Shown one piece after another: positions 3,219 to 46,284 of a DNA stretch of 64,000 bases. Made by a program: the position numbers and the translations under genes. The stretch lies in the NCBI RefSeq assembly GCF_001179925.1, contig NZ_CVSF01000068.1:62001-126000 (forward strand). The letters run 5' to 3'. How positions within the stretch are numbered: position 1 is the stretch's first letter; every line of letters begins with the position of its first letter. Source of the stretch: Candidatus Pelagibacter communis (GTDB lineage Bacteria; Pseudomonadota; Alphaproteobacteria; Pelagibacterales; Pelagibacteraceae). The notes under the pieces were generated by a model. The model searched no databases and had not been told where the DNA came from. It was given only the letters and a program-made list of their open reading frames with translations.

Positions 3219-4037
3219 TTACCACTTCAATTCACTTTGAGTGAAATTACAAATAGCTTCGTAATCCTTAAAAATATTTTCTAAACCATTGTCTTCAATC
3301 TCTTTTTTATGAATTCCATTTGTAATTAATAAAGAGTCATAATTTAATAAATTGGCACCTTTGATATCTGTATTAAGGTTATCACCTATACAAAGTATTT
3401 TTTTATCTTTATTATTTATAGACTGATTATAAACTTCCGGATAAGGTTTTCCAAAATAAATTACTTCTCCTCCCATTTTTTCAAAAACCATAGCAACAGA
3501 CCCTGCACATAATTCCCTTTTACTTCCTCTATCTACAATTAAATCTGGATTTGTACACACCATTTTTTTTTTTATTTTTTTTTCTAGTAAATCTTTATAA
3601 TAATTTAAATCTTCACTTTTATTATCAAATAAACCTGTGCATAAAAAATAATCACAATCATCTATATCTTTTGATTTTTTTTTTTCAAAAGCTTTAAATA
3701 AGTCAAAGTCTCTTGGAGGTCCTATATGATAAAATTTTTCAGTTGAAAAATTTTTTTTTAAGTAATCCAAAGCAGCTTCTCCAGAGCTATAAACATGCTT
3801 ACGAAAATTGTTATCAAGTCCCATTTTTTCTAAAAAATCTTTTACAGTCGTATTTGGTCTTGGAGCGTTTGTAAGTAAGACGAATTCTTTATCATTTTTT
3901 TTAAGTTGTTGTAAAACGTTAATAGCCTCTTTATATAATGAAATGCCATTATGAATAACTCCCCACAGATCTATATAAAACAAACTATAGTTCTGTGCTA
4001 TAGAACTAAGCCCCTCTTGATCTAAATTTTTAGTCAT
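3219..4037 (-). CDS. HAD-superfamily class IIA hydrolase (TIGR01459-like)
   Basis: The 272-residue protein has the HAD fold of the NagD/class IIA type. Motif I reads DLWGVIHNG from residue 23, motif II is near LLTNAPRP, and the C-terminal motif IV reads CIGDNLNTDIKGA. The second acidic residue of the usual DxD is Trp, which I recall as typical for the TIGR01459 subfamily. It is first in a tight minus-strand group with ribF and ileS. From that context it could be a phosphatase in flavin metabolism, for example the dephosphorylation step before lumazine synthase, but this is inference only. The start ATG is the first in frame after the divergent groES promoter region. Confidence 0.8.
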   Translation of the reverse strand: MTKNLDQEGLSSIAQNYSLFYIDLWGVIHNGISLYKEAINVLQQLKKNDKEFVLLTNAPRPNTTVKDFLEKMGLDNNFRKHVYSSGEAALDYLKKNFSTEKFYHIGPPRDFDLFKAFEKKKSKDIDDCDYFLCTGLFDNKSEDLNYYKDLLEKKIKKKMVCTNPDLIVDRGSKRELCAGSVAMVFEKMGGEVIYFGKPYPEVYNQSINNKDKKILCIGDNLNTDIKGANLLNYDSLLITNGIHKKEIEDNGLENIFKDYEAICNFTQSELKW

Positions 4038-4105
4038 TAATTTATCTATAAACCATTAAACCTTGAATTTCCTACATTTTTTAAAAAAGTAAATTTTAAG
4101 AACAT

Positions 4106-4133
4106 CTTGAAATAGTAGGTCAAATATCTATAT
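4106..4133 (+). promoter_or_regulatory. RpoH (sigma-32)-type heat-shock promoter of groES-groEL
   Basis: CTTGAAA at 4106-4112 and CTATAT at 4128-4133 are separated by 18 bases counted from the end of CTTG. This matches the alphaproteobacterial sigma-32 pattern CTTG-N17/18-CYTATNT. The start of transcription would fall near 4140, giving a leader of about 22 bases before the groES ATG at 4162. The hsp20 gene has the same arrangement with identical spacing. No CIRCE inverted repeat (TTAGCACTC-N9-GAGTGCTAA) is present. Confidence 0.75.
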
Positions 4134-4161
4134 GAAGTGCATATTTATAAAGGAGAATTTT

Positions 4162-4452
4162 ATGAAATTTAGACCGTTACACGATAGAGTTTTAATAGAA
4201 GTTTTAGATAGCAGTGAAAAAACTGCTGGTGGAATAATCATACCTGATACAGCACAGGAAAAACCTCAAGAAGGCAAAGTGGTTGCAGTTGGTGGTGGTG
4301 CAAAAACTGAAGACGGCAAAACGATACCAATGGATGTAAAAGTTGGAGATAAAGTTTTATTTGGCAAATGGTCAGGAACTGAAGTTAAAATTGATGGCAA
4401 GGAATACAGCATAATGAAAGAGTCAGACATTATGGGAATTTCAAGCAAATAA
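4162..4452 (+). CDS. groES: co-chaperonin GroES (Cpn10)
   Basis: GroES forms the heptameric lid of the GroEL folding chamber. The 96-residue protein begins [10 protein letters not shown] and contains the mobile loop ([22 protein letters not shown] in segments) and the core [17 protein letters not shown] choose the ATG at 4162 because AAAGGAG lies just upstream and because the earlier in-frame ATG at 4132 sits inside the promoter's -10 element. groEL follows after 23 bases with its own strong Shine-Dalgarno sequence, so this is the classical groE operon under heat-shock control. Confidence 0.98.
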
Positions 4453-4457
4453 TTTAA

Positions 4458-6137
<1,680 letters not shown>

Positions 6138-43164: not shown

Positions 43165-44349
43165 ATGCTAAAATTTAAATCAGTTGAAGAATTAGTTAAT
43201 CAACTGAAACCTGAAAAACCTGTTTATTGTATCAGAAAAAATTCTGTTACTAGAGCTTCAAAATTTTTTCAAAACAATTTTCCTGGTGAGATTTTATACG
43301 CTGTTAAAACAAACCCACATCCTGAAATTATAAAAACACTTGTAGAAAGTGGCATTGATCAATTTGATATAGCCTCAATAGAAGAAATTAAACAAGTAAA
43401 AAAATTTACAAGTTCAGCTAAATGTTCATATATGCATACTGTCAAAAGTCCTGAAAGTATAAAAAGAGCTTATTTTCAATTTGGAATAAAAACGTTTTCA
43501 TTAGACACTAAAGAAGAGCTCATCAAAATTATTAATAACACCAATAATGCAAAAGATTTAGAATTATTTGTAAGAGTAGCAGTATCAAATGAACATGCTG
43601 AAATAGATTTGTCAAAAAAATTCGGAGCCCTAAACTCAGAAGCTTTAGGTTTGCTGAGATTAGCAAAGCAACATGCTAAAAAAGTTGGATTAAGTTTTCA
43701 TGTTGGTTCTCAATGTATGCATCCAATTTCATATGCAAAAGGTATTTCAGAAATAGGAAATATTATTAAGAAAACAAAAATAATCCCAGACTATATAAAT
43801 GTCGGTGGTGGTTTTCCAACTATATATCCAGACTTAATTCCTCACAACTTAATGGAATATTTTGGTGAAATTAAAAAAGGTTTAGAAAATTTAAAATTAG
43901 ACAGATCACCAAAAATTATTTGTGAGCCTGGGAGAGCTTTGGTGGCTGAGAGTGGTTCAACAATAGTGAGGGTCAATTTAAGAAGAAAGCAAAAGTTATA
44001 TATAAATGATGGAACTTATGGAACTCTTTTTGATGCGGGTACTCCAAATATAGTTTATCCATCTAAAATGATTAAAGAAACTTCAAATAAGATCATTTCA
44101 AAAAAGATTACTGCATTTAATTTTTTTGGTCCAACCTGTGACAGCATGGATTATATGAAAGGTCCATTTTTACTTCCAAATAATATAAAGGAAAATGATT
44201 ATATTGAACTTGGTCAACTAGGTGCATACGGACTGACTTTTAGAACTCAATTCAACGGTTTTTATTCAGATGAGATTTATGAAGTCGAAGACGCTCCGAT
44301 TATGAGCCTGTATGATAAAGACATAAATAAATCCACATTTGTTGCTTAA
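43165..44349 (+). CDS. type III PLP-dependent decarboxylase (ornithine/lysine type)
   Basis: The 394-residue protein is a fold-type III decarboxylase of the eukaryote-like ornithine/DAP/arginine group. The PLP Lys48 is in LYAVKTN, HVGSQ and GGGFP provide phosphate and PLP contacts, EPGRALV is typical, and FGPTCDSMDYM carries the active-site Cys-Asp pair. I use the ATG at 43165; the TTG at 43150 overlaps the Shine-Dalgarno sequence GGAGG. It probably makes putrescine from ornithine, with lysine or arginine as alternatives. It heads an operon with a deoxyhypusine synthase homologue and a ureohydrolase. Confidence 0.88.
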   Translation: MLKFKSVEELVNQLKPEKPVYCIRKNSVTRASKFFQNNFPGEILYAVKTNPHPEIIKTLVESGIDQFDIASIEEIKQVKKFTSSAKCSYMHTVKSPESIKRAYFQFGIKTFSLDTKEELIKIINNTNNAKDLELFVRVAVSNEHAEIDLSKKFGALNSEALGLLRLAKQHAKKVGLSFHVGSQCMHPISYAKGISEIGNIIKKTKIIPDYINVGGGFPTIYPDLIPHNLMEYFGEIKKGLENLKLDRSPKIICEPGRALVAESGSTIVRVNLRRKQKLYINDGTYGTLFDAGTPNIVYPSKMIKETSNKIISKKITAFNFFGPTCDSMDYMKGPFLLPNNIKENDYIELGQLGAYGLTFRTQFNGFYSDEIYEVEDAPIMSLYDKDINKSTFVA

Positions 44350-45392
44350 TGTCGAGTGACAAAAAACTAACTCATAACAGCAAAAAAGATTTTCTTAAAA
44401 ATCCTGTGGAGCATATTGATATCACTTCGTTTGACTCAAGACCAATTATCTCATCAATGGAAAAAATGTCTTTTGTTTCTAGAGAAACAGCTAATGCAGC
44501 AAATATATTTAATGAAATGCTTAAGGATAAAGAATGCACTATCTTTTTAACATTAGCTGGATCTACTTCTGCTGCAGGATGTATGAATATATATAAAGAT
44601 CTTGTGAAATATAATATGGTGGATGCAATAATAGCAACTGGTGCATCAATTATTGATATGGATTTTTTTGAAGCACTTGGATTTAAACATTATCAGGGTT
44701 CACAATTTCAAAATGATACTGAGTTAAGAAAAAATTATATAGATAGAATATACGATACATATATCGACGAAGATGAACTTCAAATATGTGATAAAACTAT
44801 ATGTGATATCGCTGATACTTTAGAAGCTAGAAGTTATACTTCCAGAGAATTTATAAGAGAAATAGGTAAATATTTAAAAAAGAACTCAAAAAAAAAAGAG
44901 TCTTTAATTGAAACTGCCTATGACAGTAATGTTCCCATATTTTGTCCAGCTTTTACAGACTCAAGTGCAGGTTTTGGATTAGTAATGCATCAAGAAAAGA
45001 ACCCTAAAAAACATATGACCATTGACTCTATTAAAGAATTTAGAGAATTAACAGAAATCAAGATACAGTCTAAAGTATCAGGATTATTTATGATTGGTGG
45101 TGGAGTGCCAAAAAATTTTATTCAGGATACGGTAATTTGTGCTGAACTTTTAGGCAAAGAAGTTGATATGCATAAATATGCTATACAAATTACAGTTGCA
45201 GATTCTAGGGATGGTGCATGTAGTAGTTCAACTTTAAAAGAGGCTAGTTCATGGGGTAAGGTTGATATTACAAAAGAACAAATGGTTTTTGCTGAAGCTA
45301 CAAGTGTTTTACCATTAATTGCTAGTGATGCTTTTCACAAAGGTGAGTGGAAAAACAGAGACAGAAAAAACTTTTCTAAAATTTTTGGATAA
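44349..45392 (+). CDS. deoxyhypusine synthase-like protein (probable homospermidine synthase type)
   Basis: The 347-residue protein is a homologue of eukaryotic deoxyhypusine synthase. It has TLAGSTSAAGCMNIY, IIATGASIIDMDFFEA, GGGVPKNFI and DSRDGACSSS, which match the NAD-binding and substrate segments, and Lys304 in SSWGKV, the position of the enzyme-imine Lys in human DHS. Bacteria lack eIF5A, so the substrate must differ; some bacterial members make homospermidine. Its ATG overlaps the decarboxylase stop by one base (TAATG), and the neighbour genes are for putrescine supply. Confidence 0.88.
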   Translation: MSSDKKLTHNSKKDFLKNPVEHIDITSFDSRPIISSMEKMSFVSRETANAANIFNEMLKDKECTIFLTLAGSTSAAGCMNIYKDLVKYNMVDAIIATGASIIDMDFFEALGFKHYQGSQFQNDTELRKNYIDRIYDTYIDEDELQICDKTICDIADTLEARSYTSREFIREIGKYLKKNSKKKESLIETAYDSNVPIFCPAFTDSSAGFGLVMHQEKNPKKHMTIDSIKEFRELTEIKIQSKVSGLFMIGGGVPKNFIQDTVICAELLGKEVDMHKYAIQITVADSRDGACSSSTLKEASSWGKVDITKEQMVFAEATSVLPLIASDAFHKGEWKNRDRKNFSKIFG

Positions 45393-45396
45393 AAAA

Positions 45397-46284
45397 TTGA
45401 AATATCTTTCAAATAAAAACGGATTTTTAGGAGTTGATAATAAATTCAATTTTAGAGAAAAAGTTGTAATAGTTCCATTTGGTCTTGAGAAAACTGTAAG
45501 TTATGGCAAGGGTACAAAGAATGGACCTAAAGAAATAATTAAAGCATCTCATCAAGTTGAGCTTTATGATGAAGAACTCAATTGTGAACCATATAAAAAA
45601 ATTGGAATTAAAACTTTAAAACCATTTAAAATAGACAAAAATATTAATAAAGCATTGGATAAGATTTCAAGTATAAATAAAGATATATTAGATAAAAAAC
45701 TTTTTCCAATGACTTTAGGAGGGGAACATTCAATAACACCTGGTTGCTTGAAACCATTTATAAAAAAATATCAAAAAATTTGTCTTCTTCATTTTGATGC
45801 ACATGCTGATTTGAGAAATAACTATGATGGTGAAAAATATTCTCACGCATCTGCAATTCGGAGATGCCTAGATAGTCCTAATGTATCTCTAATATCTTTC
45901 GGAATTAGAAATATTTCAAAAAGTGAAATTCCATTTCTGAAAAAAAATTCTTCAAGAATAACAATTTTCTGGGCAAAAAATAAAAATAATTGGAATTTTG
46001 AAAAATTTAAAAAATTAATTAAAAACAAAACTGTTTATCTTACTTTTGACGTTGATAGTTTAGACTCTAGTATTATGCCTGCAACTGGGACCCCAGAACC
46101 AGGAGGATTATTTTGGGATGAAACTTTAAAGATTATTAGAATAGCATCAAAACACTCGAATATAGTTGGTGCGGATATAAATGAACTTGCTCCTATTAAA
46201 GGATTTAATTCTTACAATTTTTTAGTAGCAAAATTAGCTTATAAAATTTTAAGTTACAAATTTTTATCTAAGAAGCTGGTCTAA
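45397..46284 (+). CDS. agmatinase/arginase-family ureohydrolase
   Basis: The 295-residue protein is a binuclear manganese ureohydrolase: GGEHSITPG, HFDAHADLR, TFDVDSLDSSIMPATGTPEPGG, which hold the metal-binding His and Asp residues. Agmatinase (agmatine to putrescine and urea) is the most likely activity given the polyamine neighbours; guanidinobutyrase or arginase are possible. I place the start at the TTG at 45397, four bases after the DHS-like stop; an in-frame ATG at 45319 would overlap that gene by 74 bases and add residues unlike the family. Its end overlaps the convergent yhhQ by 17 bases. Confidence 0.85.
   Translation: MKYLSNKNGFLGVDNKFNFREKVVIVPFGLEKTVSYGKGTKNGPKEIIKASHQVELYDEELNCEPYKKIGIKTLKPFKIDKNINKALDKISSINKDILDKKLFPMTLGGEHSITPGCLKPFIKKYQKICLLHFDAHADLRNNYDGEKYSHASAIRRCLDSPNVSLISFGIRNISKSEIPFLKKNSSRITIFWAKNKNNWNFEKFKKLIKNKTVYLTFDVDSLDSSIMPATGTPEPGGLFWDETLKIIRIASKHSNIVGADINELAPIKGFNSYNFLVAKLAYKILSYKFLSKKLV

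Follow-up and report, generated by a model that had tools for sequence, protein, structure and literature searches.

A Pelagibacter operon with a caldomycin synthase-type protein: a candidate guanidino route from arginine to homospermidine

A contig of Candidatus Pelagibacter communis encodes a decarboxylase (P0001), a homologue of deoxyhypusine synthase (DHS; P0002) and a ureohydrolase (P0003) one directly behind the other, which raises the question of what the DHS homologue couples: putrescine, agmatine, or agmatine and a protein. A sequence-only reading of the window, the whole 64,000-nucleotide stretch that was analysed, had offered two answers. The operon may make homospermidine from putrescine, or the DHS homologue may use an agmatine-derived group that the ureohydrolase then trims.

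On balance we favour a self-contained pathway that leads from arginine via agmatine and caldomycin to homospermidine and thus runs through guanidino intermediates. P0001 would convert arginine to agmatine. P0002 would form an imine on Lys304 with the help of NAD and pass the 4-guanidinobutyl group of one agmatine to the amine of a second one, giving caldomycin (1,9-bis(guanidino)-5-azanonane), from which P0003 would remove two ureas to leave homospermidine. What was observed here is the order of the genes, the protein families by curated cut-offs and the residues of the pocket; that the decarboxylase is specific for arginine, and what caldomycin synthase (CdmS) and ureohydrolase do, is predicted from papers on relatives. 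Purified CdmS of the hot-spring bacterium Thermus thermophilus accepts agmatine as its sole substrate, and together with the ureohydrolase TtSpeBap it yields homospermidine (PMC10981699).

Gene order and the enzymes on either side

The coupling of the three genes that had been read from the letters at 43165-46284 was confirmed in all its parts: the stop of P0001 and the start of P0002 overlap as TAATG (44347-44351), and a gap of 4 bases (45393-45396) precedes the TTG start of P0003 (Table 1). Since the order decarboxylase, DHS homologue, ureohydrolase was repeated in 37 of the 37 ureohydrolase-type genomes of the host order that were laid out, and in 10 of 17 genomes with a CdmS-type gene at class level (the window's own genome counted), the arrangement is not due to chance.

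Table 1. Genes of the operon and codons of the P0002 pocket, in window coordinates
Feature	Position	Strand	Details
P0001, PLP decarboxylase of the alanine-racemase fold, 394 aa	43165..44349	+	ATG start; PF02784 131 bits, PF00278 also present
P0002, DHS-homologous CdmS-type protein, 347 aa	44349..45392	+	ATG start; NF002699.1 578.8 bits; PF01916 328 bits
P0003, ureohydrolase, 295 aa	45397..46284	+	TTG start; PF00491 207 bits; TIGR01230 210.3 bits
Ser72 codon	44562..44564	+	CdmS Ser67, proposed first guanidino contact; Asn in human DHS
Glu141 codon	44769..44771	+	CdmS Glu136, proposed second guanidino contact; Asn in human DHS
Asp148 codon	44790..44792	+	CdmS Asp143, proposed second guanidino contact; Glu in human DHS
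Phe209 codon	44973..44975	+	CdmS Phe204; human DHS Asp243
Cys291 codon	45219..45221	+	CdmS Leu286, human DHS Asp316; differs from CdmS, acid lost
KEASSWGK segment	45237..45260	+	Glu298 (CdmS Glu293) and catalytic Lys304 (CdmS Lys299, human Lys329)

P0001 has the Orn/Arg decarboxylase fold (PF02784) and lies inside a SAR11 polyamine cluster. It had been called a type III decarboxylase; by analogy to assayed relatives the protein is most likely an L-arginine decarboxylase (ADC) descended from ornithine decarboxylase, not an ornithine enzyme. According to a 2023 study, decarboxylases from the corresponding Pelagibacter and Fonsibacter clusters accept arginine but neither ornithine nor lysine, and the assayed Pelagibacter enzyme has the same length as P0001, 394 aa (PMC9992855). 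Since these relatives take arginine, the result supports the caldomycin route. The same text describes a Candidatus Pelagibacter ubique cluster (ODC/ADC, DHS/SpeY, arginase/agmatinase) that equals ours in gene content, although its DHS homologue is labelled SpeY, a putrescine-using homospermidine synthase, where we find the CdmS type.

P0003 scored 210.3 bits with the agmatinase model TIGR01230, above the cut-off of 174.3. Its metal-site motifs are GGEHS (108), DAHAD (134) and DVDSLD (218), and its predicted substrate is caldomycin or agmatine, from which it would split off urea. TtSpeBap is a ureohydrolase that works well on caldomycin (PMC10981699).

Family and pocket of the DHS homologue

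P0002 passed the curated NCBI equivalog model for caldomycin synthase (NF002699.1) with 578.8 bits against a cut-off of 500, as did proteins of the control genomes of Thermus composti, Deinobacterium chartae and Caulobacter vibrioides; the Thermus control is thus T. composti, whereas the characterised enzyme comes from T. thermophilus. In contrast, NF001980 (homospermidine biosynthesis protein) gave 188.9 bits, below its cut-off of 450, and all five DHS models stayed below theirs (TIGR00321, 231.7 of 304; NF002006, 305 of 434; NF002630, 240 of 364; NF002294, 163 of 350; NF003052, 151 of 380). We took NF001980 as the SpeY model from its name, and by this model score P0002 is not a SpeY; DHS family, NAD-dependent coupling and final product are common to both.

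These scores bear on the strongest alternative, in which P0003 would be a plain agmatinase that yields putrescine and P0002 a homospermidine synthase of the SpeY type, coupling one putrescine to another. The Pelagibacter cluster is labelled in this way in the legend of Fig. 2 of PMC9992855, as are similar clusters with SpeD-type decarboxylases in PMC10407285, and TIGR01230 names P0003 an agmatinase. But P0002 stayed below the cut-off of NF001980 (188.9 bits) and reached 578.8 bits with the caldomycin-synthase model, and Thermus CdmS, whose identity to aligned SpeY, HSS and DHS enzymes is only 27-33%, does not use putrescine (PMC10981699). We regard two-putrescine coupling as possible but rather unlikely. 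P0002 is most likely a CdmS-type caldomycin synthase, predicted from its sequence to couple two agmatines in an NAD-dependent manner; from this assignment we infer a preference for agmatine over putrescine.

The pocket was mapped with the CdmS residue numbers printed in PMC10981699. Six of the seven pocket residues named for the Thermus enzyme are retained in P0002: Ser67, Glu136, Asp143, Phe204, Glu293 and Lys299 recur at a constant offset of +5, where human DHS has Asn, Asn, Glu, Asp, Glu and Lys. That is, the catalytic lysine and the proposed guanidino contacts are all kept (Ser72, Glu141, Asp148, Glu298 and Lys304). The active Lys304 does sit in SSWGKV (codon 45258-45260), as had been read from the translation. 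P0002 lacks both Asp243 and Asp316, the human DHS acids to which the CdmS paper draws attention, and this argues against putrescine as substrate. They are replaced by Phe209, as in CdmS, and by Cys291, where CdmS has Leu286.

This cysteine counts against the caldomycin route because it differs from the CdmS residue, and a leucine at this place is non-specific and also occurs in the probable deoxyhypusine synthase 7cmc and in archaeal DHS rows. For our comparison we examined the 80 listed of 118 pattern-matched stretches (L054-L133) and aligned their frames longer than 290 aa. The pattern itself called for Leu or Phe where CdmS has Leu286; leucine in these rows was thereby selected and was not counted as evidence. 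Ser is invariant at the Ser72 position (46 of 46 and 28 of 28 rows), and Phe at the Phe209 position nearly so (45 of 46 and 28 of 28). Haloarchaeal DHS rows (for example Halorussus and Halonotius; Haloferax was not included) do not have the CdmS pocket residues. No Thermus protein was among the matches listed (80 of the 118 stretches), the nearest kin listed being from Trueperaceae (L064).

Taken with the NF002699 match and the failure of NF001980 and the DHS models, the CdmS pocket residues support the caldomycin route. The suggestion that the operon makes homospermidine is well supported by the same model and residues. They also make a trimmed agmatine-derived group the better of the two options first offered, with the correction that a second agmatine, not a protein, is the most likely acceptor. 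The supposed novelty of this agmatine-then-trim logic in bacteria did not hold, since it was published for T. thermophilus in 2024 (PMC10981699). With CdmS (TTHA1570) and TtSpeBap of that organism the operon shares the NF002699 equivalog (passed in this genus by T. composti), the catalytic Lys, the proposed guanidino-binding Ser, Glu, Glu and Asp, the Phe and a partner ureohydrolase. It differs in the Cys for Leu286, in that P0002 and P0003 share their operon with a decarboxylase of the alanine-racemase fold, and in that sister genomes have an amidase-deiminase pair in place of the ureohydrolase.

Exchange of the trimming module and viral copies

Among 117 genomes sampled from the host order, 62 have a CdmS-type gene. 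The DHS gene is followed by a ureohydrolase in 39 of them and by an amidase-deiminase pair in 22, none has both, and in the last one the contig ends after the DHS gene. A guanidine-removing gene thus stands beside the DHS gene in 61 of 62 genomes, which supports the caldomycin route. The DHS tree requires at least 12 exchanges between the two modules. We had expected a pocket difference between ureohydrolase-type and deiminase-type operons; none was seen in the aligned DHS rows.

The known chemistry of the amidase-deiminase pair leads from agmatine to putrescine. Because 22 of 62 genomes combine an unchanged pocket with this pair, a putrescine-using DHS homologue fits more simply, the swap being easiest to understand if either module yields putrescine. 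A SpeD-SpeE fusion is encoded in the source genome as well; the cell may therefore need putrescine in any case, which counts against the caldomycin route. So does the published view of SAR11, in which conversion of agmatine to putrescine by an agmatinase was postulated and low homospermidine levels were reported (PMC8437039).

The deiminases and amidases of CdmS genomes were expected beforehand to diverge from AguA and AguB. All six deiminases scanned fell below the TIGR03380 cut-off (212-270 of 381.8; L240, L024, L194, L195, L197 and L199), but so did two from host-order genomes without CdmS (333 each). In L240 the amidase gene lies at 4012-4896 and the deiminase gene at 4889-5941 of that locus. 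Three of four amidases stayed below the TIGR03381 cut-off (295, 299 and 311 of 410) and one exceeded it (460, G278), as did an amidase from a genome without CdmS (461). This evidence is weak and was not used for our verdict.

On 16 of 19 uncultured viral contigs the DHS homologue stands together with both a ureohydrolase and a decarboxylase of the SpeD type, which also supports the caldomycin route; in a first scan, DHS homologue and ureohydrolase shared 11 of 14 viral loci. In the 2023 survey, a DHS homologue of this kind was not found in viruses, and phage contigs with an arginine decarboxylase homologue, CdmS and a ureohydrolase would fill this gap (PMC9992855).

Other couplings and meaning for SAR11

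A mixed coupling would let P0002 move guanidinobutyl or aminobutyl groups between agmatine and putrescine via N1-aminobutylagmatine, with the ureohydrolase acting before and after. Both diamines could be present, and such a scheme would explain how one DHS pocket serves either guanidine-removing module. N1-aminobutylagmatine is a minor intermediate of the Thermus two-enzyme reaction, but Thermus CdmS used agmatine only (PMC10981699), and we consider mixed coupling improbable.

Modification of a protein has a model in Haloferax volcanii, which shares agmatine and agmatinase-like trimming with our proposal; the agmatinase gene there is clustered with the DHS and aIF5A genes and the proposed acceptor is the protein aIF5A (PMC5178350). 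It is very improbable that P0002 likewise would attach a group from agmatine to a lysine of a protein such as EF-P, for P0003 to trim: the sole EF-P model match of the genome does have a lysine, in its HVKPGKG loop, but the efp gene lies on a different contig, no second IF5A-like match was found in the EF-P model scan of this 86% complete genome, NF002699 names a small-molecule synthase, and the gene of the DHS homologue keeps the company of decarboxylase genes, on phage contigs too. That one match exceeded the EF-P cut-off, and the model also matches four archaeal controls. For P0002, deoxyhypusine synthase proper was rejected because of the curated cut-offs and the lack of a second IF5A-like match in that scan.

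To return to the caldomycin route, we know of no member of the alphaproteobacterial branch that has been assayed for caldomycin. SAR11 are among the most abundant bacteria of the ocean, and polyamines are part of their nitrogen diet. We tentatively propose that homospermidine synthesis in SAR11-type bacteria, and in T4-like phages that probably infect them, may run wholly via guanidino intermediates, that the ureohydrolase may be swapped in place for an amidase-deiminase pair acting on the condensed bis-guanidino triamine, and that phages may carry whole modules of SpeD-type arginine decarboxylase, CdmS and ureohydrolase into infected cells. Action of the pair on such a triamine would be, as far as we know, undescribed chemistry. 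With the trimming module swapped repeatedly and the DHS pocket left as it was, these genomes amount to a natural experiment on the substrate of the DHS homologue. If the operon does couple agmatine, the published SAR11 maps, which take agmatine to putrescine (PMC8437039), have to be redrawn, and marine cells should be searched for caldomycin, which is invisible to the usual o-phthalaldehyde amine assay (PMC10981699).

The operon and its DHS-like protein

The sequence-only reading had described three coupled genes, encoding a decarboxylase, a deoxyhypusine synthase (DHS)-like protein and a ureohydrolase, and their coordinates, overlap, four-base gap and TTG start were all confirmed. On the left, the operon is flanked by BioY and by an ActR/RegA-type regulator on the opposite strand, and on the right by a queuosine-precursor transporter and L28, both on the opposite strand. 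The cluster matches a published Pelagibacter cluster, and this match, together with the sequence-only reading, is the ground for placing the genome in SAR11 (Pelagibacterales). Profile search assigned the decarboxylase an ornithine/arginine decarboxylase fold, and Pelagibacter and Fonsibacter proteins of corresponding clusters are reported to decarboxylate arginine, not ornithine or lysine (PMC9992855). The ureohydrolase scored over the TIGR01230 cut-off and retains the metal-site motifs.

Locations of the operon genes and of related loci in the genomes and viral contigs compared
Feature	Location	Strand	Remark
Decarboxylase gene	window 43165-44349	+	gene 1 of the operon
DHS-like gene	window 44349-45392	+	TAATG overlap with decarboxylase gene
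Ureohydrolase gene	window 45397-46284	+	TTG start, four bases after DHS-like gene
SpeD and SpeE matches	G000:C61:2964-3971		351-codon open frames, one contig of the window's own genome
Second arginase-family protein	G000:C67:78131-78949		PF00491, 321.7 bits; 29% identity to the window ureohydrolase
Amidase and deiminase	L240:4012-5941		at the ureohydrolase's site, judged from the reading frames
Distant DHS homologue adjoining ureohydrolase	L039:5001-6841		genome G219
CdmS-type gene adjoining rocD	L022:3539-6041		Trichormus variabilis plasmid A
Phage three-enzyme sets (examples)	L040:3655-5765; L050:4007-6138		SpeD-type, DHS homologue and ureohydrolase genes side by side

The caldomycin synthase model NF002699 (cut-off 500 bits), which the DHS-like protein of the operon passes at 578.8 bits, was also matched in three of 14 control genomes at E 1e-140, each above cut-off (Caulobacter vibrioides, Thermus composti and Deinobacterium chartae). 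The compound in question is caldomycin: according to PMC10981699, purified Thermus thermophilus caldomycin synthase (CdmS) accepts agmatine as sole substrate and joins two molecules, CdmS together with the ureohydrolase TtSpeBap yields homospermidine, and deletion of cdmS renders homospermidine undetectable. The CdmS residues Ser67, Glu136, Asp143, Phe204, Leu286, Glu293 and Lys299, singled out partly via a docking model (PMC10981699), correspond at a constant offset of 5 to Ser72, Glu141, Asp148, Phe209, Cys291, Glu298 and Lys304 of the window protein, whereas human DHS has Asn, Asn, Glu, Asp, Asp, Glu and Lys. Because Leu occupies the fifth position also in 7cmc (a probable deoxyhypusine synthase) and other archaeal rows, loss of the acid at the place of Leu286 is not diagnostic. 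As read from the aligned sequences, the Ser, the Glu/Asp pair and the Phe separate the CdmS-type family from the DHS rows examined. Within a 97-row alignment, many rows of which were selected by a search pattern of our own, deviating family members have Ile (one phage group) or Met (three rows) for Phe, or Asp for Glu141 (one).

Related genes were also seen elsewhere. The cyanobacterial Trichormus variabilis plasmid A, typed conjugative, carries a CdmS-type gene that scores 591.8 bits; neither a decarboxylase nor a ureohydrolase gene lies within about 5 kb of it. Frames of 415-688 codons (L103, L095, L110, L058 and others) combine a DHS domain of another subfamily with a DGSLSSCPPAEAVTWGK-type motif; going by record title, seven of 11 are from Planctomycetota. 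For the one scanned, L103, the nearest model was the homospermidine biosynthesis protein NF001980, with a score far under cut-off.

Exchange of the trimming module

A CdmS-type gene was found in 62 of 117 genomes sampled from the taxonomic order to which the window's genome belongs (three shared with the class sample). Close relatives of the window ureohydrolase (at least 369 bits; next-best matches below 90) occur in 39 of the 62 and the agmatine deiminase family PF04371 in 22, never together; in one genome (G393) the contig breaks off at the DHS gene. PF04371 is not restricted to genomes with CdmS, being present in a further 44 of the order that lack the CdmS-type gene. The order decarboxylase-DHS-ureohydrolase was found in all 37 ureohydrolase-type genomes whose loci were compared and in the remaining two, G000 (the window's own) and G098, and decarboxylase-DHS-amidase-deiminase in all 22 deiminase-type genomes (28 loci, six places being represented twice). 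At locus L240, amidase and deiminase occupy the ureohydrolase's syntenic site, between the same neighbours as in the window, as judged from the reading frames.

In the more careful of two trees, built from 74 DHS rows (46 + 28), the module label must change 12 times (bootstrap range 11-13). Well supported branches force at least ten of these changes, and nine fall within the order's 61 rows; recombination affecting the DHS gene itself may have contributed to the count. A quick tree of 89 rows likewise gave 12 changes, at least eight forced. Both groups share one pocket: Ser72, Glu141, Asp148, Cys291, Glu298 and Lys304 are present in 74/74 rows and Phe209 in 73/74. Single examples of both module forms had been drawn before (PMC9992855); their repeated in-place swap is new, as far as our literature search reached.

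Across the class, NF002699 was matched in 18 of 289 sampled genomes, 16 above cut-off. The G219 match (83 bits) belongs to another subfamily and was left out of later counts, giving 17 genomes, which include one match truncated by its contig end (G220). This distant G219 homologue, which adjoins a ureohydrolase, lies under the cut-off of every model matched. A ureohydrolase adjoins the DHS gene in ten of the 17, all without PF04371, and the other seven all have PF04371: right after DHS in G115, about 3 kb off in G063 and G278, and remote or on a separate contig in four. In G063, G278 and G220 an arginase-family protein is encoded elsewhere. Among the CdmS-type controls, Caulobacter has PF04371 only, Thermus PF00491 only and Deinobacterium both; mutual exclusion is therefore not universal.

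Phage-borne modules

Two scans of IMG/VR yielded 19 distinct viral contigs with a CdmS-family DHS homologue (L040-L052, L280-L294 and L053/L295), the carriers being uncultured T4-like and other phages. The contigs are not all independent: L045 and L052 (the same contigs as L285 and L294), for one pair at least, have almost the same sequence. A SpeD-like gene adjoins the DHS homologue in 18, and 16 of these also have a ureohydrolase (broken into two frames in L292), while the other two are cut off at the DHS gene or within it. In 13 contigs the arrangement is SpeD-DHS-ureohydrolase (ureohydrolase in view in 11), with RegA in 12/13 and the gp44 clamp loader in 10/13 within the stretch examined; in five it is DHS-ureohydrolase-SpeD, with tRNA genes upstream in 5/5. 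L053/L295, a 4,560-base contig classed viral, has at its end a decarboxylase and a DHS gene resembling those of hosts; it might be chimaeric or hold a host operon acquired by transfer.

All eight phage DHS homologues scanned match NF002699 below cut-off (L050 450; best, L040, 481). The L050 SpeD-like protein is 47% identical to its pelagiphage HTVC201P counterpart, a protein shown by assay to decarboxylate arginine (PMC9992855). The phage SpeD-type gene probably encodes an arginine decarboxylase. Pelagibacter phages made up 11 of 12 phage records matched in each of two SpeD-like searches. Searches of the 'phages' collection (50,697 records) with two DHS queries found no match, and with the phage ureohydrolase six weak ones, the best (29%) being a protein of Microcystis phage MaAM05 annotated as agmatinase. 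No PHROGs family was matched by the DHS homologues or the ureohydrolases scanned (two of each). A BLASTP survey described in PMC9992855 found no SpeY homologue in viruses. No description of phage three-enzyme modules was found in the open-licence literature searched; within that limit, the joint carriage of all three enzymes by phages is new.

The probable route to homospermidine

SAR11 cells contain homospermidine at levels termed low by the authors, and norspermidine feeding raised it significantly in HTCC7211, but not in HTCC1062 (PMC8437039). In the window's genome (assembly 86% complete), an EF-P profile search found one match, with lysine at the loop, and no second IF5A-like match, and a PF04371 search found no agmatine deiminase. 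The SpeD and SpeE frames are probably one fused gene, as in Pelagibacter, where such fusions yield spermidine together with spermine or thermospermine (PMC11107197). Proteins similar to the second arginase-family protein are also encoded by genomes of the order that lack the CdmS-type gene.

In each of the 61 CdmS-type genomes of the order that could be read past the DHS homologue, a guanidine-removing gene lies next to it. This links the operon to arginine and agmatine, but leaves the sequence of steps unfixed. By one order of steps or the other, the operon very likely converts arginine to homospermidine. Its DHS homologue might use putrescine, like SpeY, which was reportedly treated by Burnat in 2018 and Shaw in 2010. 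Such an enzyme would explain the module exchange most simply, and conversion of agmatine to putrescine has been postulated for SAR11 (PMC8437039); family membership and pocket residues, however, favour agmatine over putrescine and make this order of steps the less likely one. On the same grounds we lean towards agmatine coupling and trimming, in which the DHS homologue would join two agmatines and the guanidine ends would be trimmed afterwards to give homospermidine. The proposal made from the sequence alone, of an agmatine-derived group that the ureohydrolase trims, holds in part; as a new bacterial use it does not stand, the chemistry having been shown in Thermus (PMC10981699). If agmatine coupling does come first, the amidase-deiminase pair must act on caldomycin, a predicted activity.
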